Assembly: GCA_945883565.1 (NCBI GenBank)
Contig: CAMCXO010000015.1
Span: forward strand, 1-57,550
DNA: 57,550 nt
Origin: Chryseobacterium gleum
Lineage (GTDB): Bacteria > Bacteroidota > Bacteroidia > Flavobacteriales > Schleiferiaceae
Reading direction: 5' to 3'
The position numbers and the translations under genes were made by a program. The notes beneath the pieces were generated by a model, which saw nothing but the letters and a program-made list of their open reading frames with translations, was not told the origin of the DNA and did no database searches. Below, piece after piece: positions 7,553 to 24,410 of the stretch (its first letter is position 1; every line of letters starts with the position of its first letter).

Positions 7553-9007
7553 TTAGGGATTGTGATTTTCGAGTTTAAGACGAATAATTTCTTGGGTTTT
7601 CTTAGGATCGGCTTTGCCACCAGAGCGTTTCATTACTTCTCCCATAAACAAGCCTATTAAGCCTTTTTTTCCGGCTTGGTATTCGGCTACTTTTTCGGGG
7701 TATTCGGCTAAAACGGCATCGGCCCAACTGCTAAGCTGATCGGAATCGCTGTTTTGCAGCCAGTTGTTTTCGCGGGCAATGGCTTCGGCACTTAGGTGGG
7801 TTCCGTTTTCGAGCAGAGGTAAAATGCGCTGGCTGGCTATAGAATAGCTTATAAGCTGTTGGTTTACCAGCGATAATAACTCGGCAACTTGGCCCGGTTT
7901 AACGGCATATTGACTAAGCGACCAAGCGTTTTGATTTAAAGAGGCCCTTATTTGGGTATTCAGCAAATTGGCTGCGGCCTTGGGTTCGGCTCCATGGTTT
8001 ACAATGGCTTCGAAGTAATTGGCCATTTCGCGGTCTTCGGTTAATACCGAGGCATCGTAGGCCGATAATCCCCATTCATGGGTATATTTTTCTACCCTTA
8101 CCCATGGTAAAACGGGCATTTGGGCCTTTACTTGTTCTATACGCTCGGGTGTTACAATAACCGGTTGTAAATCGGGCTCGGGGAAATAGCGGTAATCGTG
8201 TGCTTCCTCTTTGGAACGGAGGGCATAAGTTATGTTGCGTGCGGCCTCGTAATTGCGGGTTTCTTGTATAATGCGTTCGCCCTTATCGAGCAATTCGGCT
8301 TGCCTGGCAAACTCGAAATCGATGGACTTTTGAACATTGCGAAACGAATTCAGGTTTTTTACTTCTACTTTGGTGCCAAAAGCTTGAGCCCCAATAGGGC
8401 GCAACGAAATATTTACATCGCAACGCAGCGAGCCTTCTTCCATATTGCCATCCGAAATATCTAAATAGCGCGCCAGCTTCCTTATTTCATTCAAATAAGC
8501 ATAGGCTTCTTCTCCATTGCGCAATTCCGGTTCGCTTACAATTTCGAGCAATGGGGTGCCGGCGCGGTTCAAGTCCACTAAAGTGTGGAAAGGATCAATG
8601 TCATGCAAACTTTTGCCCGCATCTTCCTCCATATGTATGCGGGTAAGATGTATGCGTTTATTTAGGCCATCGGCCAGTTGTATATCTACCCAACCCTCTG
8701 TGCAAATAGGGGTTTTGTCTTGGGTTATTTGGTAGCCTTTGGGCAAGTCGGCATAAAAATAGTTTTTGCGGGCGAATTGGTTTTCTCGCCTAATTTGGCA
8801 ATTGCAGGCCAAACCCAAGCGAATGGCAAATTCTATGGTTTTTGCGTTCATTCGGGGCAAGGTGCCCGGGTGTCCCAAAGTAATTGGGCTAATTTGGGTG
8901 TTTGGTCCTTCACCATAGGTAACAGGGTCGGACGAATAAGCCTTGCTGAGGGTTTTAAGTTGAAGGTGGACTTCTAAGCCAATAACGGCTTCGTAACGTT
9001 CGTGCAT
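7553..9007 (-). CDS. gatB: Aspartyl/glutamyl-tRNA(Asn/Gln) amidotransferase subunit B
   Basis: 484 residues, full length for GatB. The start YEAVIGLEVHLQLKT and the blocks PRMNAKTIEFAIRLGLAC, KNYFYADLPKGYQITQ and DYRYFPEPDLQPV are diagnostic. The C-terminal YqeY-like tail (GLIGLFMGEVMKRSGGKADP) binds tRNA. With GatA and GatC (not in this window) it converts Glu-tRNA(Gln) and/or Asp-tRNA(Asn) to the correct amidated form. It lies 21 nt after lpxK. Confidence 0.97.
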   Translation of the reverse strand: MHERYEAVIGLEVHLQLKTLSKAYSSDPVTYGEGPNTQISPITLGHPGTLPRMNAKTIEFAIRLGLACNCQIRRENQFARKNYFYADLPKGYQITQDKTPICTEGWVDIQLADGLNKRIHLTRIHMEEDAGKSLHDIDPFHTLVDLNRAGTPLLEIVSEPELRNGEEAYAYLNEIRKLARYLDISDGNMEEGSLRCDVNISLRPIGAQAFGTKVEVKNLNSFRNVQKSIDFEFARQAELLDKGERIIQETRNYEAARNITYALRSKEEAHDYRYFPEPDLQPVIVTPERIEQVKAQMPVLPWVRVEKYTHEWGLSAYDASVLTEDREMANYFEAIVNHGAEPKAAANLLNTQIRASLNQNAWSLSQYAVKPGQVAELLSLVNQQLISYSIASQRILPLLENGTHLSAEAIARENNWLQNSDSDQLSSWADAVLAEYPEKVAEYQAGKKGLIGLFMGEVMKRSGGKADPKKTQEIIRLKLENHNP

Positions 9008-9028
9008 ACGGCCTGCAAATAACGCACT

Positions 9029-10063
9029 TTAAAGCGGCAAATTGGTGTGCTTTTCAAGCAATTTGCGCATGGTTTTTTCGCCATCAAACAAAAAGCCAAA
9101 GCTTAAAGGTAAAATACCCCAATTAAGTTGTGGGTGTTGTTTCCATTTTTGGGGAATTCGAGCCCAATCTTTTTGGGTGGTAATGATTTGCCCACTACAA
9201 AATTCCAAAGACTCTTCCAACATTTTCTGGAAATCCATCTCTGAATACAAATGGTGATCGGCAAAAAATTTACATACCACAACCATGTTCGGAAATTGGG
9301 TTTCTATTGTTTTTCTAAACCGATAAGGTTGTGCCATCCCGGCTAACAGAAGGGCTTTCTTAGGCTCGTTCGAAACCGCATTTCCGTGGCGATCTAATAA
9401 TGGTCCGGTTTGGGTACGGCCAAAAAGCACTTCTACACAAAATGGCAGGGTTTTTTGCCGGTAAAAGTCAATTTGGGCTTGAGAAATATGGGGCTCACAA
9501 TGGGTGAAAATAACCACATGAGCCCTTTTACAGCCCGATTTAAATTCGCGTAATTGCCCGGATGGCAAAACCCAATCATTAAAAAACGGTCTATCGAATC
9601 GGCTAAGCATAATGTTCAAATCGCGTTTTATATGGCGATGCTGAAATGCATCGTCGAGAACCAAATACCGCAGCCGAGGATTTTCGTTTACCATACGCTG
9701 AGCCCCTATAACACGCTTTTCGCAAACTGCTACGGCTGTATGAGGCAATTTTAGTTTATGCATAAGGGGTTCGTCTCCAACATCTGTAGCTGTAGAAGTG
9801 CTTTCGACCCATAAAAAACCTTTGGATTGGCGTTTGTAACCGCGACTTAAAATACCGGTTTGTTTTTCGGGCAGGATTTGGGCCAACCATTGCACAAAAG
9901 GGCTTTTACCGGTTCCACCTGTGCTTAAATTGCCCACAGATATAACATAGGCATCAACCTTTTTTTGTTCAAACCACCCCCAATCAAAGGCTTTGTTCCT
10001 AATAAGCATCACGCTGCCGTATAGCCTAGAAAATGGCCATAGAAGAAATTGAAGAAAGACCAT
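9029..10063 (-). CDS. lpxK: Tetraacyldisaccharide 4'-kinase
   Basis: 344 residues. LpxK phosphorylates the 4' position of the lipid A precursor at the inner membrane. The N-terminal hydrophobic anchor (LLWPFSRLYGSVMLIRN) is followed by the P-loop SVGNLSTGGTGKSPF and by LSRGYKR and VLDDAFQHR, all family hallmarks. It confirms an LPS-bearing outer membrane. Its start codon shares one base with the miaA stop codon, so translation is probably coupled. Confidence 0.95.
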   Translation of the reverse strand: MVFLQFLLWPFSRLYGSVMLIRNKAFDWGWFEQKKVDAYVISVGNLSTGGTGKSPFVQWLAQILPEKQTGILSRGYKRQSKGFLWVESTSTATDVGDEPLMHKLKLPHTAVAVCEKRVIGAQRMVNENPRLRYLVLDDAFQHRHIKRDLNIMLSRFDRPFFNDWVLPSGQLREFKSGCKRAHVVIFTHCEPHISQAQIDFYRQKTLPFCVEVLFGRTQTGPLLDRHGNAVSNEPKKALLLAGMAQPYRFRKTIETQFPNMVVVCKFFADHHLYSEMDFQKMLEESLEFCSGQIITTQKDWARIPQKWKQHPQLNWGILPLSFGFLFDGEKTMRKLLEKHTNLPL

Positions 10064-10965
10064 TAGGGTTTAAGGTTTTGAAGCCACTCTAGGAGGCTGT
10101 TGGGAGATTGGGCATCGAGCCAAACCAAATCGGGCAACTGGTTTTTGAACCAAGTTGTTTGTCTTTTGGCATAGCGACGGGTGTTTTGGGCAATGGCTGC
10201 AATGGCTTCTTCTAAACTGCATTGGCTGCGGAAATAGGCGAATAGTTCGGTGTACCCCACCGTTTGAAGAGCCGGTAAATGGGCCAATGGCAAAAGCGAC
10301 TTCACCTCTTCTTTCAATCCGGCCTGCATCATTTGTTCAACCCTAGCATCAATGCGTTGATAAAGGGTTTGTCGTGGCCACAAAGGGGCTATGGCCACAT
10401 AGTTGTATGGCGATTTAGCAGGCATTTGTTGCGCAACAAGTTCAGAGTAGGTATACCCACTTAAGCAAATTTCAAGTACCCGCATCAGCCTTTGAGGGTT
10501 TTGAATGTCCATTTGTAGGTATTGAACAGGGTCGAGGGCCAATACTCTCGATTGTAAATGGGCAAGACCTTTTTCATGGTATTCGCTTTGAACCAAAGTT
10601 CTGATTTTGGCTTCAACATTGGGCAAGGCATGAAAGGGAAAGAGCAGCGATTTAAGATATAAACCACTACCTCCAACCAATACAACAAAGGATGTGTTTT
10701 GATTTTGCATCCAATTATTAAATAATTGGGCAAAAGTTCCGGCCGATATGGCATCGAGAACGCTAAACTGATTAACAAAGGCATGTGGAGCCATTTTTAA
10801 TTCTTCGATGCTAGGCTTTGCTGTTCCAATAGTCATCTCCTTGTAAAACTGCCTTGAATCGAACGAAGCGATAGGCGCCCCTAATGCTTTCGAAATTTGA
10901 ATGGCCCAATTGGTTTTGCCCGAGGCCGTTGGCCCAACCACTGCTATTATTTTAGGAAACGGCAT
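10063..10965 (-). CDS. miaA: tRNA dimethylallyltransferase
   Basis: 300 residues. MiaA adds a dimethylallyl group to A37 of tRNAs reading UNN codons. P-loop VVGPTASGKTNWA is at residues 9-21, with DSRQFYKEMTIGTAKPS and a conserved GGSGLYLKSLL. The substrate (DMAPP) would come from the mevalonate pathway indicated at 48-50 kb. It is the first gene of the miaA-lpxK-gatB-thioredoxin-like operon and is divergent from the Wzc-like gene. A near-consensus box (TATATTTT) lies just upstream on this strand. Confidence 0.96.
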   Translation of the reverse strand: MPFPKIIAVVGPTASGKTNWAIQISKALGAPIASFDSRQFYKEMTIGTAKPSIEELKMAPHAFVNQFSVLDAISAGTFAQLFNNWMQNQNTSFVVLVGGSGLYLKSLLFPFHALPNVEAKIRTLVQSEYHEKGLAHLQSRVLALDPVQYLQMDIQNPQRLMRVLEICLSGYTYSELVAQQMPAKSPYNYVAIAPLWPRQTLYQRIDARVEQMMQAGLKEEVKSLLPLAHLPALQTVGYTELFAYFRSQCSLEEAIAAIAQNTRRYAKRQTTWFKNQLPDLVWLDAQSPNSLLEWLQNLKP

Positions 10966-11029
10966 TTTGTACGAAAATATAGTGGTTTTTTAAACACTTG
11001 AATTCTGAATATGCGCATTTTGATTGCAG

Positions 11030-11037
11030 TATATTTG
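11030..11037 (+). promoter_or_regulatory. Candidate Bacteroidota -7 promoter box for the Wzc-like gene
   Basis: TATATTTG is an exact match to TAnnTTTG, about 105 nt upstream of the ATG at 11143. No TTG is found at the ideal -33 distance, so support is partial. The implied leader is about 100 nt and AT-rich. Confidence 0.4.
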
Positions 11038-11142
11038 GCGCCATTATGACAAGGAAAAAAAGAAAAAGATTCGGCTCTCGATTTTTAACATTTTTTACTG
11101 TCAAAACATTCTCTTAACACCGCGAAATTACTGCCATAATTC

Positions 11143-13650
11143 ATGGTTGAACTCAATCCACAATCCTCCGATAGCAAGAACGGTCAAAATGGCCAGCAAG
11201 ATTCCGGAAACTATGTAAAGTCGCTGCTTTTGGGCCTCAGCAGTTTTTGGCCTTTGTATGTGCTGAGTATAGTGCTTTTTTTATCAGGTGGTTATCTCCT
11301 TCTGCGGTATTCTACCCCTGAGTTTAGAACCAAGGCGAGCATGAGCGTGGAAGACAAGAATTCCGAAGCCAGTGGTTTTGATGCAGTGCTTACCGCTATG
11401 GGCTATGCCGTACCGAGCTCAAGTATGGACAAACATTTGTTCATTTTGAAGTCGAGAATGTTAATGGAAAATACCCTTCGACGCGATCGCTTTGAAGTGA
11501 GTTATTTTAAAGAAGGACGTATTAAAGCGAACGAAATATTCCTGAAATATCCTTTTCTAGTGGAATTCGAACCCTTAGCATATCAACCTTTGGGTACACA
11601 GATTAATGTTGAAATAATTGACGAAAACAGCTTTAGAATTTTTTGCAACGACAAAGTGAAAAACTTTGTTCGCTATTCAGATGATAGTAAGTTAAGCGCG
11701 AAAGAAATGGGGCTGCGCCATGTGAAGTCTCTAAACGGTACCTATGCTTTTAACGAATGGATTAAAGGAGAAGGATACCACTTTAAATTGGTAAGAAACG
11801 ATGCCTTTTTTAATTTGAATGAGCGCGATTTCCGCTTTCGCTTCAATCACATAGATGCGCTTATCAACCCCCTACAAGAAAAAATTAAAATCGACAGCGT
11901 GTCTGATGGAGCCAGTGCGGTGCTCATCTCGATGTTGGGCAATATGCCTCAGAGGCAAGAATTGATTCTTAATAACCTGTGCAATTCTTTCATCGATTAC
12001 GGCCTCACTCAGAAAAATATGATTTCGGAGACTACCATTGATTTTATTGACAAGCAGTTAAGAAAAATTGAAGACAGCCTTTTTAGTGTAGAGCTTAAGT
12101 TGGAAAAATACCGTTCCGACAACCGAATTGTAAGCTTGAGCTCAGAAGCTCAGGTGTTGTTTACGCGATTGAGCGAATTAGAGAGCCAAAAAGCTTTGGA
12201 AGAAGGCAAACTTGCCTATTACAAATTCTTGTACGAGAAGTTAAGCGATCAGGAAAACACCGATATTCTGCATTCGCCGGCAGCAGTGGGCATACAAGAC
12301 CCCACTATTATGAATTTGGTGAACCATATAAATACTTTAATTGCCCAAAAGTCGGTGGCTCTTGCTTCGGTGAGACCGGGCAATCCGGAGCTTTTAAAAT
12401 TGAATTCCGAAATTCGGGCCACTTCAAAAATGTTGGTCGATAATATTTCGGCAGCCCAAAAGCAAAGCGAAGTGATGCTTAACGAAGGCAAGCGCCGTAT
12501 TGCCATCATTGAACGCGAAATGATGGCTTTTCCGGCAACAGAACGCAACTTAATTAGCATCGAGCGCAAGTTCAAACTAAACGAAGGTCTGTATGTGTAT
12601 TTGCTTGAGAAAGAAGCCGAAGCCGGTATTGCACAGGCTTCTAATGTTTCGGCAAGTAAATTGGTTGATAGGCCGTTTACCCCAGAAATGCCGGTTAGCC
12701 CTAATAAAAAAGTGGTGATGGGTTTGTCAGCTTTGCTGTCGTTAATCCTGCCAACTGCGTTTTTGTTGTTGAGAGACTTCTTAAACACCAAAATCAGAAC
12801 CAGAGGCGACATAGAAAGCGCAACAAAAATTCCGCTCTTGGGTATTGTAGGTCATAACGACCGCGAAACCACTTTGGTGGTGGCCTCGCACCCAAAATCG
12901 TCTATTGCCGAATCGTTCAGAGCCTTGCGCTCCAATATGCACTTTATTGCGCCTATACCCGACCAAGGCGCTCAGGTTATATTGGTAACTTCCAGCATTG
13001 GTGGAGAAGGTAAAACCTTTTGTTCCATAAACCTCAGTCTGGTACTTTCCTTAACTGGCAAGAAAACCCTATTAATTGGGGTTGACTTGAGAAAACCTAA
13101 GATTTACAACGACTTTGGCCTTTCTAACACCAAAGGCCTTTCTAATTATTTAGCGGGAGTAGAAGATCAGGATGGTATTATTCAATCAACACGCTACAGC
13201 CATTTGGATGTGATTTCTGCGGGGCCAATTCCGCCAAATCCTTCTGAACTTATTATTGGTGAGCGCTTTGGTGAGCTGATTTCGAATTTGCGCAAAACCT
13301 ACGATTTTATTGTTTTGGATACGCCGCCAATCGTATTGGTTAGCGATAGTTTAGAAATAATGCGCCATGTAGATATGAGTTTGTATGTGGTGCGTCAAGC
13401 TTATACCGATAAAGCCCTTTTAAGCATCATTAACGATAAGTTCAATAACCAATCGGTTAAAAATCTGGCATTAATCTTTAATGATTTCGATGTAACACGC
13501 GGCTACGGCTATGGTTACGGTTATGGCTATGGTTACGGTTATGGCTATGGATATGGATACGGTTATGGCTACGGTTATGGCTACGGTTATTTTGAAGAGG
13601 AAGAAGGCGCAAGCACAGGTAAGCGCAAGAAGAGAAAAAGAAAGGAGTAA
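11143..13650 (+). CDS. Wzc-like polysaccharide co-polymerase with BY-kinase domain and Gly-Tyr tail
   Basis: 835 residues. An N-terminal Wzz domain is framed by membrane helices near residues 36-55 and 520-545, with a long coiled-coil periplasmic part in between (SLFSVELKLEKYRSDNRIV region). The cytoplasmic C-terminus is a BY-kinase: Walker A SSIGGEGKT near 616-624, Walker A' LLIGVDLRKPK near 643-653, Walker B FIVLDTPP near 721-728. The autophosphorylated tyrosine cluster is replaced by 15 Gly-Tyr dipeptides (residues 787-816), then FEEEE and a Lys/Arg-rich end. It controls chain length and export of a surface polysaccharide. No Wza, Wzy or phosphatase gene lies next to it here. Confidence 0.93.
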   Translation: MVELNPQSSDSKNGQNGQQDSGNYVKSLLLGLSSFWPLYVLSIVLFLSGGYLLLRYSTPEFRTKASMSVEDKNSEASGFDAVLTAMGYAVPSSSMDKHLFILKSRMLMENTLRRDRFEVSYFKEGRIKANEIFLKYPFLVEFEPLAYQPLGTQINVEIIDENSFRIFCNDKVKNFVRYSDDSKLSAKEMGLRHVKSLNGTYAFNEWIKGEGYHFKLVRNDAFFNLNERDFRFRFNHIDALINPLQEKIKIDSVSDGASAVLISMLGNMPQRQELILNNLCNSFIDYGLTQKNMISETTIDFIDKQLRKIEDSLFSVELKLEKYRSDNRIVSLSSEAQVLFTRLSELESQKALEEGKLAYYKFLYEKLSDQENTDILHSPAAVGIQDPTIMNLVNHINTLIAQKSVALASVRPGNPELLKLNSEIRATSKMLVDNISAAQKQSEVMLNEGKRRIAIIEREMMAFPATERNLISIERKFKLNEGLYVYLLEKEAEAGIAQASNVSASKLVDRPFTPEMPVSPNKKVVMGLSALLSLILPTAFLLLRDFLNTKIRTRGDIESATKIPLLGIVGHNDRETTLVVASHPKSSIAESFRALRSNMHFIAPIPDQGAQVILVTSSIGGEGKTFCSINLSLVLSLTGKKTLLIGVDLRKPKIYNDFGLSNTKGLSNYLAGVEDQDGIIQSTRYSHLDVISAGPIPPNPSELIIGERFGELISNLRKTYDFIVLDTPPIVLVSDSLEIMRHVDMSLYVVRQAYTDKALLSIINDKFNNQSVKNLALIFNDFDVTRGYGYGYGYGYGYGYGYGYGYGYGYGYGYGYFEEEEGASTGKRKKRKRKE
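13501..13590 (+). repeat. 90-bp tandem hexamer repeat (15 x GGNTAY) encoding (Gly-Tyr)15
   Basis: Fifteen successive Gly-Tyr codon pairs with mixed codons (GGC, GGT or GGA with TAC or TAT) near the 3' end of the Wzc-like gene. Changes in copy number by one 6-bp unit would keep the frame and alter the number of phosphorylatable tyrosines. Confidence 0.95.
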
Positions 13651-13660
13651 AACGGCTTAA

Positions 13661-14164
13661 ATGTTAATTAGATTAAAACTTGGTCGCTCAAAATCGGCTT
13701 TTTGGATTTTGGGGCTATCGCTTTTAATCCTAGGGGCTTTGCTTGCTTTTTATTCTAACCAAGCCGCCATGTTTGCCACCAAAGTGTTAGGGGCCTTGAT
13801 GTTGTTGTCTGGTGTATCTAAGGCTTTTTCTCACGAAAAACGCGGTTTTATAGAATACAAATGGCTCATCGATTTGGCTTTAGGGGGTTGGTTGCTTTTT
13901 GCTGAGTCGTCACATGAATTGTTTGGTTACATTTTGGGCCTTTGGTTGCTTTTGTCGGCTTTGATGAATTGGTATTTCCGATTTAAGTCCACTAGGGAAT
14001 GGTTTAGTACAAAGGATTTGGTTTCGGTTGCACTGCGGTTGGTGTTCGGTTTGCTTCTTTTCATGTTCCCCTCTCTCTTGTCTGGAGGGCTTATGTTTAT
14101 GCTGGGAATTCTATTTATGGCTTCGGGTTTGGTGGTGCTAAATAGAATACGCTACATCGAATAA
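13661..14164 (+). CDS. Small multi-pass membrane protein, DUF308/HdeD-like
   Basis: 167 residues with about six hydrophobic segments, for example FWILGLSLLILGALLAFY, LLLSGVSKAF, FGYILGLWLLLSALMNWY and FGLLLFMFPSLLSGG. The paired-helix pattern with repeated LG(A/I)L motifs resembles DUF308/HdeD proteins. It starts 10 nt after the Wzc-like stop, so it is probably co-transcribed. Role unknown; HdeD itself is linked to acid stress in E. coli, but that should not be transferred. Confidence 0.7.
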   Translation: MLIRLKLGRSKSAFWILGLSLLILGALLAFYSNQAAMFATKVLGALMLLSGVSKAFSHEKRGFIEYKWLIDLALGGWLLFAESSHELFGYILGLWLLLSALMNWYFRFKSTREWFSTKDLVSVALRLVFGLLLFMFPSLLSGGLMFMLGILFMASGLVVLNRIRYIE

Positions 14165-14328
14165 CAGAATATGAGTTTAGTTCAATTTATCTGGTTATAA
14201 GTCGATTAAAACGATTTCTTTCTCTATTATTTCTGTATAAGCCCCGGAATTTTACACAAACTTGCCCAAATAGTGTGGCAACCGTAAAAAAGAAAATGCC
14301 GAGTCTTGTGGTGTAAAACAACAGGCTC

Positions 14329-14574
14329 ATGAAACTCCGAAAAAACATTGCCCTTAGCGACTCCGGTTTTTTGTTCAACCCATCAACCGGCGATTCGTAT
14401 TCGTTAAACCCTATGGCGGCGCGCGTTCTGCGCTGGGCCGGAGAAGGTATTGAAGAAGATGAAATAATTAAGCGCATTCTGGCCGACTTTATGGCCGATC
14501 GCGATACCGTTGAAAAAGACCTTCAAGACTTTAGCAATATGCTGCATATGCACAAACTATTGGCCGAAGAATGA
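14329..14574 (+). CDS. PqqD-like protein (peptide-recognition fold), first gene of a six-gene operon
   Basis: 81 residues: LSDSGFLFNPSTGDSYSLN, ARVLRWAGEGIEEDEIIKRI, then DVEKDLQDF-like spacing and HKLLAEE. This is the PqqD/RRE winged-helix pattern (beta-hairpin with a GxSYxLN turn, then three helices) that binds leader peptides in RiPP pathways or acts as a scaffold. No PqqE radical-SAM gene and no obvious precursor peptide lies next to it. Its stop overlaps the ATP-grasp start by 4 nt, suggesting the two proteins work as a pair. Family is clear; function here is inference. Confidence 0.8.
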   Translation: MKLRKNIALSDSGFLFNPSTGDSYSLNPMAARVLRWAGEGIEEDEIIKRILADFMADRDTVEKDLQDFSNMLHMHKLLAEE

Positions 14575-15617
14575 AACCCAAATACACCATTGCCGTAACC
14601 GGTCTAAATGCCATCGACAGTCCGGGCCCGGGTATTTCGGTAATTCGGGCACTTAAAGCGGCTACCCACTTCGATGTGCGCATTGTAGGCTTGAGTTACG
14701 AGGCCTTAGAACCCGGCATTTATATGCACGATTGGGTTGATAAAACCTACCAAATTCCCTATCCAGGGGCTGGTCAGGAGGTACTGCTTCAACGATTGGG
14801 TTACATAAACGGACTGGAACATCTAGACTTTTTATTCCCAAACTTCGATGCAGAGCTGTTCAATTTTATCAAACTAAAGGGCAAGCTCGAAAACGAATTT
14901 GGCATTAAAATGATGCTTCCCACCATAGAGCAGTTTGAAGCCCGCCAAAAATCAAAGCTCAACGATTATGGCTTGACTCATAATATAAAAGTTCCTGCCA
15001 GTGCCCTGGCTTTTTCAGCAGCCGATTTGCCTGCTGTTGCCGAGCGTATGGGGTATCCAATGGTGGTGAAAGGGAAGTTTTACGACGCTAAAGTGGCCTA
15101 TAATTTAGAACAAGCCCAATCTGCCTTTCATAAAATTGAAGCACAATGGGGATTGCCTATTGTGGTTCAAGAATTTGTTAGGGGAAGTGAGGTTAACGTT
15201 TGCGGTATAGGCGATGGAAATGGTCGTTTAATGGGTGCTGTGCCCATGAGGAAACTCTACATAACCGACAAAGGAAAAGCCTGGTCTGGAATTACCCTCG
15301 ACGATTCGGAACTCTTGAACATCAGTAGAAAACTGGTGGAATCAACCTGCTGGCAAGGCCCATTTGAATTGGAATTCATCAAATCGGCCGAAGGCGAATA
15401 CTATTTGCTCGAAATCAATCCCCGCTTTCCGGCCTGGTGCTTCTTGCCGGTAGGAGCCGGGCAAAATCAACCCGAAACCATTGTGCGCTTGGCTATGGGC
15501 GACGAAGTTGAACCCTTTGAGACTTACGAAACTGGTAAAATGTTTATTCGATATGCCTACGATATGGTGGTTGACCTCAAAGAATTCGAACAAATTTCAA
15601 CCATAGGAGAACTTTAA
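14571..15617 (+). CDS. ATP-grasp ligase (carbamoyl-phosphate-synthase/PylC-like)
   Basis: 348 residues. The N-terminus ITVxG-like strand (YTIAVTGLNAIDSPGPGISVIRAL) resembles the pre-ATP-grasp domain of CPSase-like enzymes. The ATP-grasp core shows GYPMVVKGKF (ATP-binding Lys), VVQEFVRGSEVNV, and the metal/ATP site ELEFIKSAEGEYYLLEINPRF. Such enzymes join a carboxylate to an amine or thiol through an acyl-phosphate. Overlap with the PqqD-like gene and 14-nt spacing to the decarboxylase gene point to one pathway. The substrate is not readable; an amino acid or peptide carboxylate is plausible. Confidence 0.85.
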   Translation: MKPKYTIAVTGLNAIDSPGPGISVIRALKAATHFDVRIVGLSYEALEPGIYMHDWVDKTYQIPYPGAGQEVLLQRLGYINGLEHLDFLFPNFDAELFNFIKLKGKLENEFGIKMMLPTIEQFEARQKSKLNDYGLTHNIKVPASALAFSAADLPAVAERMGYPMVVKGKFYDAKVAYNLEQAQSAFHKIEAQWGLPIVVQEFVRGSEVNVCGIGDGNGRLMGAVPMRKLYITDKGKAWSGITLDDSELLNISRKLVESTCWQGPFELEFIKSAEGEYYLLEINPRFPAWCFLPVGAGQNQPETIVRLAMGDEVEPFETYETGKMFIRYAYDMVVDLKEFEQISTIGEL

Positions 15618-15631
15618 ATCAAAAACAAAAA

Positions 15632-16996
15632 ATGACCCAAAACACCCGTAAACCTTACGAACGTCCCTTAATCAGACCACTGAACAGCGGTTTGATGAAC
15701 AAATTTGGCCAACGCACCGAATGGGCGCCTTTTACCCACATCGATGGCGTTTCGGTTAAATCGCTTATCGAACAATTCGGATCTCCATTGTTTGTGTATT
15801 CAGAACGACGCATGCGCGACAATTACCGCGCAGCTAAAAAAGCCTTCGAAACCCGCTATCCCAAAGTTCAATTTGCTTGGTCGTACAAAACCTGCTACCT
15901 GAATGCTGTTTGCAAAGTATACCACAGCGAAGGCTCATGGGCCGAAGTGGTTTCGCGCTTCGAACTGGAAAAAGCCTTGCAAAATGGGGTAAAGGGAAGC
16001 CATATTCTGTTTAATGGCCCCGATAAAACCAACGACGATTTGAAACGGGCCATAGAAGTGGATGCTCCCATTCATATAGATCACCTAGACGAATATTACC
16101 GATTGGTAGATTTGGCCAAGGATCTAAAAAAACGTCCAAGGGTGGCCATTCGGGTAAATATGGACACTGGCATTTACCCCATGTGGGACCGCTTTGGGTT
16201 TAACTATGAATCGGGGCAAGCCTGGGATGTTCTCAATAAAATTGCCGCCGCAAATGTTTTAGAACTCATTGGCCTTCACACCCATATAGGAACCTATATG
16301 TTGAGCCCTTCGGCATATGCGGTAGCGGCTTCTAAAATGGCCGATTTGGCCCTTGGCCTTAAAAATCGCCACAATATTTCTATATCATACATAGATATGG
16401 GAGGTGGTTTTGCTTCTAAAAACACATTAAAGGGCGCATTTTTACCGGGTACAGATACCGTTCCCGAAGTAGTTGAATATGCGGAGGCTATATGCTCGTC
16501 TTTGTTAAACGCAGGCTTTTCAAACGACGATTTACCCAGTCTTTACCTCGAAAGCGGCAGAGCGCTTATAGACGATGCTGGCTTTTTACTGGGAAGTATT
16601 ATTGCCAACAAACGCCTGAGCGATGGAAGAAGGGCTACCATTTTAGACTTCGGGGTAAACATACTTTTCACGGCCTTTTGGTACGACCATAAAATATCGC
16701 CGGCTCAAGAATTCGGATACCACAGCGAAGATTGTGTATTGTACGGTCCACTTTGCATGAATATCGATGTGGTACGCGAAAGCGTCAGCCTTCCTCCTCT
16801 AAATGCAGGCGACCATGTGGTGGTGCATACTGTTGGGGCATACAACATAACCCAAAGCATGCAGTTTATAGCCTTGCGTCCGGCTGTGGTCATTATTGAC
16901 TTAGAAGGTAAACCCCATATTATTCGGCAAAAAGAAAGTTTGGAAGTACTTCAAACAGACGAAAGAATGCCGGCTTATCTGGAAGCTAATTCATGA
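15632..16996 (+). CDS. Fold-type III PLP-dependent decarboxylase (LysA/ornithine decarboxylase superfamily)
   Basis: 454 residues. A TIM-barrel PLP site is visible: Schiff-base Lys86 in FAWSYKTCYLNAV, LIGLHTHIGTY, the phosphate-binding loop DMGGGFASK, and YLESGRALIDDAG (EPGR in classical family members). The C-terminal beta domain has YGPLCMNIDVV with Cys375 and Asp379, and TVGAYNITQSM. The family decarboxylates diaminopimelate, ornithine, lysine, arginine or carboxy(nor)spermidine. The YKT and ESGR variants differ from standard LysA (YAxKAN, EPGR), so a specialised substrate is likely. Its stop overlaps the transporter gene by 4 nt. Confidence 0.88.
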   Translation: MTQNTRKPYERPLIRPLNSGLMNKFGQRTEWAPFTHIDGVSVKSLIEQFGSPLFVYSERRMRDNYRAAKKAFETRYPKVQFAWSYKTCYLNAVCKVYHSEGSWAEVVSRFELEKALQNGVKGSHILFNGPDKTNDDLKRAIEVDAPIHIDHLDEYYRLVDLAKDLKKRPRVAIRVNMDTGIYPMWDRFGFNYESGQAWDVLNKIAAANVLELIGLHTHIGTYMLSPSAYAVAASKMADLALGLKNRHNISISYIDMGGGFASKNTLKGAFLPGTDTVPEVVEYAEAICSSLLNAGFSNDDLPSLYLESGRALIDDAGFLLGSIIANKRLSDGRRATILDFGVNILFTAFWYDHKISPAQEFGYHSEDCVLYGPLCMNIDVVRESVSLPPLNAGDHVVVHTVGAYNITQSMQFIALRPAVVIIDLEGKPHIIRQKESLEVLQTDERMPAYLEANS

Positions 16997-19188
16997 CCAA
17001 AATTGGTTCAATACCTGTTCAGTTTAAGTGGCTTTTGGCTAATCTGGGCCATGGCGTTTTAAACAGCTATGGCCAAATATTTTTTGCCCAATACCGGGCC
17101 TTGTCGATTGTGTTGCTGTTGGTGGCTTTTTTCGATTTAGGCTCGGGATTCGGGGGATTGATGGCGGTGATTCTGGCCCAAATGTTTGCCCTCGCTCTTG
17201 GGCAAAGTGCCTACAGCCTTCGCGACGGCAGTTTAACTTACAACGCCCTTATGACTGGTATGGCTTTGGGAATGGCATACGAGTGGAATTTGGCATTGGG
17301 GCTTCTCATTGCATTAGGCAGTTTGCTAAGCTTACTGTTTACCATGTGGTTTTCGGCACAATTGGGGGCCCGCCGGCTGCCATTTTTAAGCCTACCTTTT
17401 CTTTTGGCCATTTGGGTGGTATTGCTTGGCGCCCAAAGTTTGAGCGTGGTAGAGCTTAGCCCAAAATCGTACCTAAGCCTGTATACCCAATTCCCCGAAA
17501 TTTTCAACCAAACCAACGATTTTATAAGCCAATGGCCTGCTTCCAATTATTTCCATCTACTATTCAGATCGGTAGGGGCCATTTTCTTTCAATTCAACGA
17601 CCTGGCCGGCATTTTAATCTTGCTGGCAGTGCTCTTTCAATCGCGTATCGCTTTTGTTCTCAGTATATACAGCTTTAGTTTGGGCTATGGTTTTTACAGC
17701 AGCTTAGAGGGCGATTTCAGTCAACTTATTTATGCCTATATCGGCTTTAATTTTATATTAACAGGCATAGCCTTGGGCGGCTTTTTCATAGTGGCCGACT
17801 GGCGAAACTTTGTGCTGTTGGCCGTGGCCGTTCCGCTATCAGCTTTGCTTATTGCGGCCCTTGACCCGGTTTTTCAATCGGCAGGACTGCCACTTTATTC
17901 CTTGCCTTTTAATCTTGTAGTATTATTGGTTTTAAGTGCTTTATGGCAACGTTTTTACCCCAAAACCCTTTTACCGGTTTATACCCAAACGTATTCGCTG
18001 GAAGAAAACCTCTACGCCCATCAAACATTTAGAAACCGATTTGCCCACTTGCCGGCGGTTTACGTTCATCCACCCATTTTAGGCGAATGGTATGTTTCGC
18101 AAGCCTTCGACGGCACAATTACCCATCTCGATGCATACAAATACGCTTGGGATTTTGATCAACGAGATACCGAAGGCTTCAGTTTTAAAGAACCTGGCGA
18201 ACAGCTCGAGGATTTTTATGCCTGGAATTTGCCGGTGGTGGCTCCGGCTGCGGGCTATGTAGTGGCTTTGGTTAACGATTTGCCCGATAACGCTATTGGT
18301 AACGTTGACCTGAAAAACAATTGGGGCAATACTTTGGTGATAAAGCACGTAGATGGTCTTTTTTCGAAACTGTGCCATTTGAAAGCCGGGAGCATCCTGC
18401 CGAAACTGGGTGAGTATGTACTTCAGGGCCAGGTAGTGGCCCGTTGCGGAAATTCTGGTAGGTCGCCCGAACCCCATTTGCATTTCCAAATACAGGCCAC
18501 AGAACATATTGGCGCACCCACCATTAAGTATCCATTGTGTGCTTTTGTAGTAGGCGGCAAGCAGTTAAAACAATTCGATTACCCCAAAGAAGGCGAGAGG
18601 GTGTCGCCTTTTGTAGCCGATGGGCTATTAAAGGAAGTGTTTGGCTTATACCCCGGTTGTGGTTTTAAAGTACAGGCCACTGGTTTCAGAAAATCGCCTA
18701 CCGAACTCGAGTGGAAGGTTTACACCAATGCCGCCAATCGCCTGTATTTGTATTGCAAATCATTTAAGCAGCAAGCCTATTTTACTACCTATGGTCACGG
18801 CCTCCGTTTCGATGCGTTTGAAGGCAATGCCCAAGGACCACTTTACTTCTTCTACCTTGCTACTTACCATGTGCTTTGGGGGAGATTGAGCGGATCCGGG
18901 GTATCCGACCTCTTGCCGGTACGTCATTTTTCTTTGCCTCATCAGCGCTTTGTTGCCGATTTATTGGCCCCGTTCGTAGGCTTGCTCAAAGTGAAATACA
19001 GCAGCAAAATGTTGGGTGAAATTGGTAATAGTCTGACCTATGAAGCCGAAATCACCAGACGCTTTTTAGGCAAAGAACAGATTTGGGCCACCATTCGGGT
19101 AGAAATCAACCAAGAGAAGCAAATTGTAATTGAAGTAATTCGCGAAAGAAAACCCCTAATAAAAATGGTATGTCATCCAAGTTTATAG
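16993..19188 (+). CDS. Urea-transporter domain fused to an M23 metallopeptidase domain
   Basis: 731 residues. Residues about 15-315 are a polytopic UT-family channel with LTYNALMTGMALGMAYEWNL and RLPFLSLPFLLAIWVVLLG, matching the UT repeat motifs. Residues about 365-510 are an M23/LytM-like zinc peptidase: THLDAYKYAWDFD, PVVAPAAGYVVAL, NNWGNTLVIKHVDG, and EPHLHFQIQ near 491-499 for the second zinc site. The last ~200 residues are a beta-rich domain I do not recognise. The M23 part would face the periplasm. The start overlaps the decarboxylase stop by 4 nt; the end overlaps the outer-membrane gene by 19 nt. Confidence 0.88.
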   Translation: MTKIGSIPVQFKWLLANLGHGVLNSYGQIFFAQYRALSIVLLLVAFFDLGSGFGGLMAVILAQMFALALGQSAYSLRDGSLTYNALMTGMALGMAYEWNLALGLLIALGSLLSLLFTMWFSAQLGARRLPFLSLPFLLAIWVVLLGAQSLSVVELSPKSYLSLYTQFPEIFNQTNDFISQWPASNYFHLLFRSVGAIFFQFNDLAGILILLAVLFQSRIAFVLSIYSFSLGYGFYSSLEGDFSQLIYAYIGFNFILTGIALGGFFIVADWRNFVLLAVAVPLSALLIAALDPVFQSAGLPLYSLPFNLVVLLVLSALWQRFYPKTLLPVYTQTYSLEENLYAHQTFRNRFAHLPAVYVHPPILGEWYVSQAFDGTITHLDAYKYAWDFDQRDTEGFSFKEPGEQLEDFYAWNLPVVAPAAGYVVALVNDLPDNAIGNVDLKNNWGNTLVIKHVDGLFSKLCHLKAGSILPKLGEYVLQGQVVARCGNSGRSPEPHLHFQIQATEHIGAPTIKYPLCAFVVGGKQLKQFDYPKEGERVSPFVADGLLKEVFGLYPGCGFKVQATGFRKSPTELEWKVYTNAANRLYLYCKSFKQQAYFTTYGHGLRFDAFEGNAQGPLYFFYLATYHVLWGRLSGSGVSDLLPVRHFSLPHQRFVADLLAPFVGLLKVKYSSKMLGEIGNSLTYEAEITRRFLGKEQIWATIRVEINQEKQIVIEVIRERKPLIKMVCHPSL

Positions 19189-20435
19189 GCCTTTTTTTCG
19201 TTTTGTTTTTTAGCTTCATCACTTTATCTGCGCAAGACTCACTTCGAATGTATGCCGATTCACTAAGCTTGGGCTATTGGCAAAATGCCCAATGGAATGA
19301 CTTGGTTGAATACTCGAAACATAACGAAGTTAAAAGTTTAAATTCCATTTCTTTATTCAAACGATTTGCCGATGCTTACGCTGCACTTGGATACTGGCCC
19401 GAGGCAGAGGCTTGGGCACTAAAGGTTTGGGCTCAGAAACCTTATGATGAGGAAGCCTTAAGGCATATGTTTAGGGCTTTGCAGTTAAAAGGGGAGCCGG
19501 AACTTCTTTCTAAATTAGGTAAGAAACTCGATTACTCCTACCCCATATGGCAGTGGAACAGTGTAAATGCAGAAGTTTTGTATAAGCCCGAACCATTGAA
19601 CAACCGGGTAGAGCCACTTTTGTATTACGGATTGGGCATTAACGCCTCTCAAAAAGGACATAGCACCTGGCAAATGCAATGGGGCAGTGCTAAGCAAACA
19701 TATTTCTGGGAATCCTTCAATCAGAATAACCTTTGTGTACAATACAAAATGGCTATTGACCACAAATGGCTGCTGCGTGTTCCTGTACAACTGGCCTGGT
19801 ACCAATCTACTCTTTTAGCCGAAGACACCATAGAGGGTATTGGAGTTCAAATAAACAATGGAACATCTGAACAACTCGCATGGTCGGCAGGGACTTTTGC
19901 CAAAAGACTTATGGGAAGATGGACTTTTGAAGGGGGATTTCAAGCCATTGGCTGGCAAACCAATACCACTTACCGCCGAAACTGGTTGGTACCGGGTTTT
20001 GAAATAGACGATACGGTAACCACCGAGAATAGGGGCGAACAGTGGGAAATAGTTTTAAAAACCAAGTATATGGTACCTATTTGGGGCAACCGAATCGTCT
20101 TGGGAATTAATACTGGCTTTTTGGCCTTTAATGGCAGCACCTTTTTAAACGTTAGGCCATTTGTTCAGGCGCAAATACGGCCAAAACTGTCTGTTTATGC
20201 CGATTATTGGCACAAAAATGGCTATTTGCTGGCCGATGGAAACACGGCCGTTCTTAACAGCAACACCAATACCCAAAGCGAAAGGTACTTTTTGGGTATT
20301 ACTTACCGCTTCAAAGAACGGTGGATTGTGAGCCCGGGATTGCTTTACGAAGAAGGCAAAGATGCCCTTTACTTTAACCGGAACTTTGAGTATTTCGGCT
20401 TTTACACACAACTACAATTTCAATTTAAACCATGA
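19170..20435 (+). CDS. Outer-membrane beta-barrel protein with TPR-like N-terminal region
   Basis: 421 residues. The signal peptide MSSKFIGLFFVLFFSFITLSAQ fixes the start, 19 nt inside the preceding gene. Residues about 25-125 are helical with TPR-like spacing (ADAYAALGYWPEAEAWALKVW). From about 140 to the end, alternating aromatic beta strands (WQMQWGSAKQTYFW, QWEIVLKTKYMVPI, RYFLGITYRF) end in FYTQLQFQFKP, as expected for a barrel. YaiO-like outer-membrane proteins have a similar plan. Probably the surface component of the operon. Confidence 0.75.
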   Translation: MSSKFIGLFFVLFFSFITLSAQDSLRMYADSLSLGYWQNAQWNDLVEYSKHNEVKSLNSISLFKRFADAYAALGYWPEAEAWALKVWAQKPYDEEALRHMFRALQLKGEPELLSKLGKKLDYSYPIWQWNSVNAEVLYKPEPLNNRVEPLLYYGLGINASQKGHSTWQMQWGSAKQTYFWESFNQNNLCVQYKMAIDHKWLLRVPVQLAWYQSTLLAEDTIEGIGVQINNGTSEQLAWSAGTFAKRLMGRWTFEGGFQAIGWQTNTTYRRNWLVPGFEIDDTVTTENRGEQWEIVLKTKYMVPIWGNRIVLGINTGFLAFNGSTFLNVRPFVQAQIRPKLSVYADYWHKNGYLLADGNTAVLNSNTNTQSERYFLGITYRFKERWIVSPGLLYEEGKDALYFNRNFEYFGFYTQLQFQFKP

Positions 20436-21031
20436 AAAACCTCAAAATCACCATCTTCACTTTGCTGCTTGGTACAGCATGGGTAAATGCCCAAAATCAG
20501 ACGTTTGATGCATTTTCTAAGTCTTACACTCTAGAAGCCGAAGGAAAGTACAAAGAAAGCCTGGCCAGTTTAGAAAATGTACCCGATGGCTACGCCGTAC
20601 AATTGCGAAGGGCTTGGCTGAACTACAGCCAAAAAGCCTATTTACAGGCCAAGGCACAATACTTACTGGCCATTGCCAAAGAGCCTAAAAGCATCGAAGC
20701 CCGTTTGGGATTGATTAATGCCCTGTCGGCATTAGAGCAATACGAAGACGCCGCTAAGGTTTATCGCGAAATTTTGGCCATAGATGCCAACCATTCAACG
20801 TCTAATTACTGGTTGGCTTATCACTATTTTTTGAAAAAAGAGTTTGATAAGGCTGAGCCACTTTTGCAGCGATTAATTGCACTTTATCCATTTGATTTTG
20901 ATGGCAACGTGCTTTTGGCACAGGTATATTTAAACCGTGGCAAAATAAATGAAGCCAAAAGATTATACAACTTGGCCTTAATGTATAATCCTAGTCGCAG
21001 CGATCTAAAAGAAGTACTCGAAAAGCTGTAG
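20432..21031 (+). CDS. Secreted TPR-repeat protein
   Basis: 199 residues with signal peptide MKNLKITIFTLLLGTAWVNAQ, then TPR-type helical repeats (EAEGKYKESLASLENV, KPKSIEARLGLINALSALEQYEDAAKVYREIL, STSNYWLAYHYFLKKEFDKAEPLLQRL, LLAQVYLNRGKINEAKRLY spacing). It overlaps the barrel gene by 4 nt (ATGA) and is the last gene of the operon. It is likely a periplasmic adaptor for the barrel or the M23 domain (inference). Confidence 0.85.
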   Translation: MKNLKITIFTLLLGTAWVNAQNQTFDAFSKSYTLEAEGKYKESLASLENVPDGYAVQLRRAWLNYSQKAYLQAKAQYLLAIAKEPKSIEARLGLINALSALEQYEDAAKVYREILAIDANHSTSNYWLAYHYFLKKEFDKAEPLLQRLIALYPFDFDGNVLLAQVYLNRGKINEAKRLYNLALMYNPSRSDLKEVLEKL

Positions 21032-21932: not shown

Positions 21933-24410
21933 ATGAAACACATCCTTGCCACCATTGTCTCTTTTTTAAGCTTCAACGTTCTTCTGGCTCAACAAGCAGG
22001 AAGCCTTGATCTAAGCTTTAACCCAAGCGCCGAAGTGGTTGGAAGTATCTATTCAACAGCCATTCAACCCGACGGGCGCATTATTATTGGAGGTGGTTTT
22101 ACCAACTCCTTTAACGGACGAAACTACATTGCCCGAATAAATCCTGACGGCACCCACGACCTCAATTTCACATCGGTAGGAACCGACAACAGCGTGCTTA
22201 CCACGGTGCTTCAAGACGATGGTAAAATCATGATTGGCGGCAGATTCACTATCACAGGTGGCGCAGCCCGAGGCAGAATTGCACGCCTCAATGCCAATGG
22301 AACCGTTGACCTAACTTTCAACCCGGGCGCAGGAGCCAACTCTTGGGTAAGTGGTATTTCTCCTCTCCCAAACGGCAAAATGATAATTTGCGGATGGTTT
22401 ACTTCTTACGACGGCACCCCCATTAACCGCATAGCACGAATCGAAAACGACGGAACACTCGACTTTACTTTCAATCCGGGTTCAGGCGCCAACGACCGAA
22501 TTAGCAAAGCCATAATACAGCCCGATGGAAGAATCATTATTTCGGGCGATTTCACCACCTTCAATGGGGTTAATATGAACCGCATTGCACGATTAAACCC
22601 CGATGGCTCACTCGACCCAACTTTTAACCCTGGCACTGGTGCCAACCGCGATGTGGTGGCCGCTCTTCAACCTGACGGTAAAATTGTTATCGGCGGTGAT
22701 TTTACATCTTTTAATGGCACCCCAATTAACCGCTTGGCCCGACTAAATTCAGATGGAAGTCTCGATCTCACCTTTGATGCCGGAACAGGGGTAAACGGAA
22801 ACATTGCCACCATCGTTATTCAACCTGATTTGAGAATCTTAATAGGGGGCGACTTTATTTCTTACAACGGATTGCCCAGCAGGCGCATTGCCCGAGTAAA
22901 TGGTTTTGGCTCGCTCGACAATTCATTCAGCCCAGGAACCGGGGCCAATAATTTTGTAAGTACTATAAATCTTCAGCCTGATGGTCGAATGGTTATTGGA
23001 GGTGATTTTACCTCTTACAATGGCACTTCGCGCCCTAGAATTGCCCGTTTAAATGTTGATGGATCTCTCGATGTGAGTTTAAATCCAGGCACAGGCGCCA
23101 ACGACGAAGTACATGCAGCCGTTCTACAACCCGATGGCAAAATTCTCATAGGAGGAAGCTTCACCGCTTTTAATGGAACACCACGCGGAGGAATTGCACG
23201 ACTTAACACCAATGGCACCTTAGATGCCAGCTTCAACCCGGGCACGGGCATAGAAGGCCTTTTCAAAGGCATCTTTGCTATGGCGCTGCAGGTCGATGGG
23301 AAAATTCTAATAGGCGGTAGCTTTTGGGAGTACAACGGAACGCCCCGCGAAAACATGGCCCGCCTGAACCCCAATGGCACTATAGATCAAAGTTTTAATA
23401 CCGGTTTGGGAGCCGACTCCTGGATAAGCGATATTTTGCTGCAAGCCGATGGTAAAATTATTATCAGCGGCTGGTTTACTTCTTTCAACGGCTCCACCGT
23501 AAACCGAATTGCTCGATTAAATGCCGATGGCTCTCTTGATTTAACGTTTAATTCAGGCTCGGGCGCCGACGACCGTGTAAACGATTTGCATTTGCAATCG
23601 GATGGTAAAATACTTATTGCAGGCGATTTTACCAATTTCAACGGCATTAGTCGGAACCGAATTGCCCGCTTAAATGCCGATGGATCTCTTGATTTTGCCT
23701 TCAATCCGCCGAGTGGTGCCAACAGCGAGGTTCACGCCATCTCTCAACAAGGAGACGGTAAAGTGCTTGTAGGGGGGCGTTTTACTATGGTGAATGGAGT
23801 GCCGACCAATGGAATAGCACGCTTAAACCCCAATGGTAGCCTCGATGCCACCTTAGAAACCGGAACCGGGGTAGATGTAACCTACGAAGGCGTTTTATCT
23901 ATAACCCCCGAAGCCGATGGAAAAATTATTTTGGGCGGCTGGTTTAACGATTACAACGGCATACCAAGAGCCAACATCGCCCGTCTTAACCCCAACGGTT
24001 CACTCGATTTAAGCTTTAACCCCGGTACAGGCGCCAGCTTTTTTGTTAACACTACCGTATTACAGCCCAATGGCCGCATCCTTCTCGGTGGCGATTTCAC
24101 ATCCTACGACGGTTTACCTATAGAAGGTATCGCCAGGGTTTTCGGCACCAGTATTATTGGGCTTGACGACGAATTCATCAAAAGCGTTCATTATCCGGTT
24201 TTTCCGAATCCGGCCGAAAATATTATCCACATCAAATCGCCAAAAGGCAGTTACCTCGCTTTGTACGATTTGCATGGCCGCTTACTGCTCCAAGCCCAAG
24301 CCGAGGGCGAACAAAGCAGCTTCAACATCGGTGCATTACAACCCGGCACATACTTAATTGAAATTAGCAGTGATGAAGGCACAAGCCGTCAAAAGCTTCT
24401 TAAACGGTAA
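21933..24410 (+). CDS. Secreted Delta-60 repeat propeller protein with T9SS type A sorting domain
   Basis: 825 residues. A signal peptide (MKHILATIVSFLSFNVLLAQ) is followed by 14 repeats of about 50 residues, each like LQPDGKILIGGDFTSFNGT then RIARLNxDGSLDxTFNPGTG. These are Delta-60 repeats, which fold as beta-propeller blades. The last ~75 residues (VHYPVFPNPAENIIHIKSPK ... GALQPGTYLIEI ... QKLLKR) are a Por-secretion type A signal cleaved and surface-anchored by T9SS. Fourteen blades fit two seven-bladed propellers. The gene is monocistronic: promoter-like box upstream, strong terminator 16 nt downstream. Ligand unknown. Confidence 0.92.
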   Translation: MKHILATIVSFLSFNVLLAQQAGSLDLSFNPSAEVVGSIYSTAIQPDGRIIIGGGFTNSFNGRNYIARINPDGTHDLNFTSVGTDNSVLTTVLQDDGKIMIGGRFTITGGAARGRIARLNANGTVDLTFNPGAGANSWVSGISPLPNGKMIICGWFTSYDGTPINRIARIENDGTLDFTFNPGSGANDRISKAIIQPDGRIIISGDFTTFNGVNMNRIARLNPDGSLDPTFNPGTGANRDVVAALQPDGKIVIGGDFTSFNGTPINRLARLNSDGSLDLTFDAGTGVNGNIATIVIQPDLRILIGGDFISYNGLPSRRIARVNGFGSLDNSFSPGTGANNFVSTINLQPDGRMVIGGDFTSYNGTSRPRIARLNVDGSLDVSLNPGTGANDEVHAAVLQPDGKILIGGSFTAFNGTPRGGIARLNTNGTLDASFNPGTGIEGLFKGIFAMALQVDGKILIGGSFWEYNGTPRENMARLNPNGTIDQSFNTGLGADSWISDILLQADGKIIISGWFTSFNGSTVNRIARLNADGSLDLTFNSGSGADDRVNDLHLQSDGKILIAGDFTNFNGISRNRIARLNADGSLDFAFNPPSGANSEVHAISQQGDGKVLVGGRFTMVNGVPTNGIARLNPNGSLDATLETGTGVDVTYEGVLSITPEADGKIILGGWFNDYNGIPRANIARLNPNGSLDLSFNPGTGASFFVNTTVLQPNGRILLGGDFTSYDGLPIEGIARVFGTSIIGLDDEFIKSVHYPVFPNPAENIIHIKSPKGSYLALYDLHGRLLLQAQAEGEQSSFNIGALQPGTYLIEISSDEGTSRQKLLKR
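22002..24150 (+). repeat. 14 tandem ~150-bp Delta-60 repeats
   Basis: The repeated protein unit (GSLDLTFNPGTGAN then DGKIxIGGDFTSFNG and RIARLN) recurs 14 times. Units 10 and 11 resemble units 3 and 4 (SWISDI/GWFTSFNGSTVNRIARL against SWVSGI/GWFTSYDGTPINRIARI), which hints at an old seven-unit duplication. Confidence 0.85.

Follow-up and report, generated by a model that had tools for sequence, protein, structure and literature searches.

A conserved six-gene operon of Bacteroidota joins an ATP-grasp ligase and a FigC-like decarboxylase to a urea-channel/M23 fusion and candidate outer-membrane proteins

The described systems closest to the locus presented here each share part of it. The decarboxylases FigC, SbnH, MccE and BtrK form a clade whose substrates are derivatised amino acids, not free polyamine precursors (PMC7857480, PMC8503589). 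Channels of the urea-channel (UT) fold consist of two inverted halves, and the loop between these halves lies on the periplasmic side (PMC4357013). The T9SS sortase joins its cargo to free amines (PMC4560394), its known acceptor being a Wbp/Vim-derived sugar (PMC7468200). In the operon characterized here, a relative of FigC is encoded together with a protein of the UT fold and, in one lineage, with a T9SS-secreted partner; the enzyme families that it combines are not known to work together.

The six genes, here A to F, lie on the forward strand of a 57,550-nt stretch of Chryseobacterium gleum DNA (contig CAMCXO010000015.1, assembly GCA_945883565.1), the whole of which we analysed and refer to as the window. 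The initial annotation had described six same-strand genes with short overlaps and one gap, and the ORF coordinates agree with it exactly, the junctions from A-B to E-F measuring -4, +14, -4, -19 and -4 nt. The families it had named are likewise recovered by Pfam: PqqD for A, ATPgrasp_Ter for B (35.7 bits, cut-off 29.1), Orn_Arg_deC_N for C (98.6, cut-off 23.4), UT (175, cut-off 25) and Peptidase_M23 (51.2, cut-off 28.7) for D, and TPR for F; a Pfam search of E gave no matches, and its putative barrel is recognized from homology. None of the six proteins reached the cut-off of an NCBIfam curated model for any named function. The flanks within the window are ordinary chromosomal genes (miaA, lpxK, gatB, carB and a Wzc-like kinase gene), tRNA and Rfam searches gave no matches, and a promoter and terminator scan found sites no commoner than in shuffles. 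An anti-phage system was considered and rejected, PADLOC giving no match. The Wzc-like tyrosine autokinase/chain-length protein (11143-13650) has a C-terminal tail in which Gly and Tyr alternate for about 15 pairs (GYGYGY...), and 901 nt 3' of F, on the same strand, lies a gene (21933-24410) for a DUF5122 beta-propeller repeat protein of 825 aa that carries a T9SS sorting domain.

Do these genes form a functional unit? In a phylum sample of 395 Bacteroidota genomes, a UT-M23 profile gave strong matches spanning the UT part (E <= 1e-117) in 34, and an ATP-grasp profile (E <= 1e-109) recovered the identical 34 and none of the others, so that B and D co-occur in 34 of 34 carriers with no orphans (Fisher P ~7e-50, a value without phylogenetic correction). 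In the sample of the window's own order, UT-M23 proteins are rare. The relatives fetched first carry the six genes in the same order between differing flanks, the PqqD ORF of one of them (L021) coming from a separate reading, and a locus cut by a contig end (L017) shows D-E-F. The order A-B-C-D was found in all carrier loci read, with F next in nearly all; at one locus (L084), where A is weak, an extra gene lies between A and B. A gene order that recurs in more than 30 loci or genomes from many families, between unrelated flanks, is far beyond chance. Moreover, the protein distance matrices correlate for all pairs (r 0.65-0.90; B-C 0.89, B-D 0.90), a level that 0 of 1000 permutations reached and that joint inheritance would lead one to expect. 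The six genes are thus almost certainly one system, as the initial annotation had argued: the joint neighbourhood search with the ATP-grasp and UT-M23 proteins that it had suggested returned a same-order gene set in many families, and the genes were nowhere found scattered in relatives. A scan of a contig collection, with one protein as query, matched close relatives only, and a plasmid search found no cassette, the matches listed being to the M23 domain alone.

Two further observations concern individual carriers. At locus L079 (genome G123, 8444-16487), D occupies two separate frames, and a stretch of about 6 kb with no clear cassette gene lies between it and E; this cassette may be decaying. 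Contig 1 of G229 carries B, C and part of D at both ends, B and C having the same scores at each, which probably reflects the overlap of a linearised circular assembly.

What could such a system produce? We tentatively propose, as a reading that is possible rather than probable, that the six genes build an amine-bearing amide by ligation and decarboxylation, then release it and export it to the cell surface. In this model, whose substrates, sequence of reactions, M23 sidedness and direction of transport are our inference, B would act in the cytoplasm, linking a carboxylate to a diamino acid by an amide bond at the side-chain amine, or joining an amino acid onto a carrier presented by A. C would then strip the alpha-carboxylate, so that the amide bears a free primary amine. 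The M23-type hydrolase of D, placed at the cytoplasmic mouth of the UT channel, would free the product from its carrier or trim it, and the modified channel would pass it to the periplasm. From there, F with its TPRs and E with its barrel would carry it across the outer membrane, to be received in one lineage by a dedicated T9SS-secreted protein.

The chemistry of this model is that of B and C. B (14571..15617, 348 aa) is a carbamoyl-phosphate-synthase-like ATP-grasp ligase whose metal-binding EINPR motif (residues 281-285) is conserved and intact. C (15632..16996, 454 aa) is a PLP decarboxylase of the alanine-racemase fold with N-citrylornithine decarboxylase as its nearest relative, its best match among solved structures being FigC (PDB 7kh2, 250 bits), against 185 bits for LysA. 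K86, E307, R310, C375 and D379 are invariant, C retains the catalytic residues described for FigC, and the active-site loop reads Cys-Met (C375-Met376) in 39 of 39 sequences, as in FigC, where LysA (1twi) has a Glu at the aligned site. C scores below the curated models of both FslC (215.6 bits, 500 required) and the LysA equivalog (213.8 bits, 297.9 required). A function as housekeeping LysA is disfavoured by this score, by the Met-for-Glu motif and by a separate LysA above cut-off in 29 of the 34 cassette genomes. In the remaining five, the window's own genome (G000), G145, G222, G229 and G461, no diaminopimelate decarboxylase reaches the LysA cut-off; C might serve the lysine pathway in these genomes, which counts against the biosynthesis-export model. 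Given the preference of the FigC clade for derivatised amino acids, C would, by analogy, act after B on an amide-linked amino acid. Amide chemistry and decarboxylation, both part of the initial annotation, are supported.

D (16993..19188, 731 aa) comprises a UT domain (17056..17937; residues 22-315, Pfam envelope), an M23 metallopeptidase domain (18055..18591; residues 355-533) and a third, C-terminal, half-barrel-like beta domain (18592..19185; residues 534-731), and its AlphaFold model has a pLDDT of 89 and a pTM of 0.80. The UT domain (PF03253) superimposes on UT structures with Z ~36 over 310 residues. In the pore, as compared with dvUT over 37 sequences, Q24 is kept in 31, T130 is Ser in 35, E187 is kept in none, its replacement being mostly A or L, and T294 is Ser or Thr in 16; the second Thr is often Val. 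With the pore Glu lost, the Gln mostly kept and Thr exchanged for Ser or Val, the selectivity of the channel has probably been altered. Vertebrate UTs also vary at E187, so that its loss alone does not exclude urea. Urease is clear in only 1 of the 34 cassette genomes, with five more borderline at ~25 bits, and this rarity, taken together with the lost Glu, makes urea an unlikely cargo; a role in urea nutrition was rejected, urease being nearly absent. The solutes that UT channels admit are very small, and passage of a sizeable amide would call for a wider pore, a point against the biosynthesis-export model.

The side of the membrane on which the M23 domain lies bears directly on what it may cleave. 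Its fold is that of LytM-type enzymes (Z ~14), and H378, D387, H462, H495 and H497, the zinc ligands and catalytic His (zinc binding being assigned by family), are invariant in 37 of 37 sequences. Fold and intact zinc site would both suit a peptidoglycan-facing system, in which a periplasmic M23 domain cuts cross-links, the channel, barrel and TPR proteins transport a modifier or pieces of muropeptide, and A-B-C synthesize or alter a diaminopimelate-containing peptide, as the kinship of C with LysA might suggest. Speaking for a periplasmic M23 domain are also its stand-alone relatives, which carry signal peptides, and the weakly YmcC/LolA-like fold of the C-terminal domain: modelled with a pLDDT of 94 on its own, this domain had no strong match in a fold search, its best hits being a putative lipoprotein (Z 8.4) and a YmcC-like exported protein (Z 7.8), both weak. 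However, when the modelled helices are used, without coordinates, to place the loops of D on one or the other side of the membrane, the N/C-terminal side carries 7.2 Lys and Arg against 2.3 on the opposite side, with the higher count in 35 and equal counts in 2 of 37 sequences. This charge bias gives the same orientation as the UT structures, so that the two together put the C-terminus inside in 37 of 37, and the model shows no extra transmembrane helix between the UT and M23 domains. The cysteine content of the M23 and C-terminal parts resembles that of the operon's cytoplasmic proteins and exceeds that of E and F, although some cysteine occurs in the stand-alone relatives too. Finally, C lacks the Glu of LysA, and M23 domains related to that of D occur in haloarchaea, which to our knowledge have no murein. 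We therefore regard a peptidoglycan-facing role as rather unlikely, and, from the charge bias and the homology of the UT fold, the M23 domain as likely to reside on the cytoplasmic side, the weak C-terminal fold match pointing perhaps outside. The periplasmic cutting of peptide cross-links in the initial annotation is accordingly not the leading reading; its division of the pathway between inner and outer membrane is supported, while the periplasmic peptidoglycan element probably does not belong to it. The relatives of the M23 domain include haloarchaeal, Thermus and Thermomicrobium plasmid proteins with N-terminal hydrophobic segments (L117, L118, L119).

A (14329..14574, 81 aa) is the sole PqqD-family protein in the window's genome. 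It belongs to the family by its domain score (PF05402, 43.9 bits against 23.4) and falls below every named PqqD equivalog model. G13, F16, G21 and N27 are invariant in 39 sequences, among which there is no invariant Ser, Cys or Lys and hence no conserved residue for carrier attachment; a LysW-like carrier function was rejected, as the variable C-terminus is not conserved. The family membership of A would be compatible with a RiPP pathway, in which A binds the leader of a precursor encoded away from the cassette, B and C act on this precursor in the manner of MccE in microcin C, the M23 domain serves as leader peptidase, and D-E-F export the product. Peptide-modifying decarboxylases do exist, as MccE exemplifies, and the union of hydrolase and exporter in one protein may recall peptide export systems. 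Yet no conserved ORF of 18-130 aa lies within 1.8 kb of the cassette across loci, on which ground a linked RiPP precursor was rejected, and Pfam and NCBIfam find neither a radical SAM nor another tailoring enzyme in the cassette. Together with the equivalog scores of A, this makes a RiPP pathway unlikely, and the peptide recognition that the initial annotation had ascribed to the PqqD protein is left with no linked peptide substrate near the loci. The lack of an identified substrate and of a linked precursor counts against the biosynthesis-export model as well.

At the outer membrane, the export that we favour would depend on E (19170..20435, 421 aa) and F (20432..21031, 199 aa), both with a signal peptide by inspection: F is an exported TPR protein, and E appears to combine TPRs with an outer-membrane-type beta-barrel. 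The relatives of E match TPR models, and homology links its C-terminal part to a barrel-like family that stands alone (hhalign probability 95.9%, P 6e-9): one group of families has, in place of E, a barrel-like protein of ~275 aa that is encoded 3' of F and homologous to the barrel part of E. From this homology, E and its relatives would be outer-membrane-type barrels.

A possible recipient of the product is found in families f31 and f49, where the operon often begins with a gene, at most ~170 nt before A, whose product of ~280 aa has a T9SS sorting domain. A profile of its N-terminal domain, from which the sorting domain had been removed, matches 13 of the 34 cassette genomes and 0 of 28 cassette-free genomes of the same families; within f31 and f49 it matches 13 of 18 cassette genomes against 0 of 28 (P 8e-8, not phylogenetically corrected, the genomes being related). 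The partner is encoded a few kb away in G400 and elsewhere in the genome in G229, and the extra gene between A and B at L084 encodes a 661-aa protein of the same sequence cluster. It was not found in the window's own genome, which counts against the biosynthesis-export model. SprA is present in all 34 carriers and in 303 of the 395 genomes overall (P 8e-5, confounded by phylogeny), and PorU is present in the window's genome; SprA presence was rejected as evidence for T9SS dependence on account of this confounding. At its most far-reaching, the proposal would make the exported amide the acceptor onto which PorU anchors secreted proteins or a dedicated partner, as an alternative to A-LPS, with a cytoplasmic M23 domain on a repurposed urea channel; we consider this very improbable.

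Could transport proceed inward instead? Channels are passive and could work in this direction, the barrel and channel importing a small amide or peptide fragment that a cytoplasmic M23 domain hydrolyses and whose parts B and C process, and a hydrolase at the inner mouth would fit such a route. However, an ATP-consuming ligase is biosynthetic, the gene set includes no conserved TonB-dependent receptor or binding protein, and the T9SS-secreted partner points outward, so that uptake seems distinctly doubtful. That genes of unrelated function share this operon by chance, as tight operons may generally permit, is refuted in practice by their co-occurrence without orphans, the same order across families and the correlated divergence.

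The cassette constitutes a coherent and widespread operon, and its phylum is ecologically important in many settings. No published description of the combination was found in the open-access papers to which our search was limited, and within these the 'no named system' of the initial annotation holds true. What appears new is the gene set and its unity; each part comes from a known superfamily, and the function is a proposal. The locus suggests that the urea-channel fold has been reused for another solute and that an M23 hydrolase may face the cytoplasm, and the T9SS-secreted partner offers a handle on the system. Should the product truly reach this protein, it would bear on how secreted proteins are held in Bacteroidota that lack A-LPS.

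How does the cassette compare with known systems? With PorU anchoring it shares, in one lineage, a cassette-specific T9SS-secreted protein, and the sortase uses free amines, but the known linker of PorU is the Wbp/Vim sugar and not a cassette product. The exporters PgaA, BcsC and VexE likewise pair a TPR protein with an outer-membrane barrel, with weak matches at the TPR level, yet the cassette has no polymerase or polysaccharide enzyme. D has the same fold as the UT channels dvUT, UT-A and UT-B, but differs from them in the loss of the pore Glu, the frequent Val at the second Thr, the fused M23 and beta domains and the near absence of urease. A shares its domain family with the PqqD/RiPP recognition elements, but neither a linked precursor nor a radical SAM partner was found for it. 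Butirosin biosynthesis offers a small protein, a ligase and a LysA-like decarboxylase whose substrate is a linked amino acid (BtrI-BtrJ-BtrK); the small protein of that module, BtrI, is an acyl carrier bearing a phosphopantetheine Ser, whereas A is PqqD-like and has no conserved attachment residue. In the rhizoferrin pathway of Francisella (FigA/FslA and FigC/FslC), the ligase is an NIS synthetase, not an ATP-grasp enzyme as here, and the export parts differ, but its logic, an amide formed on an amino acid and then a FigC-like decarboxylase with a Cys-Met loop, is the one that we propose for B and C.
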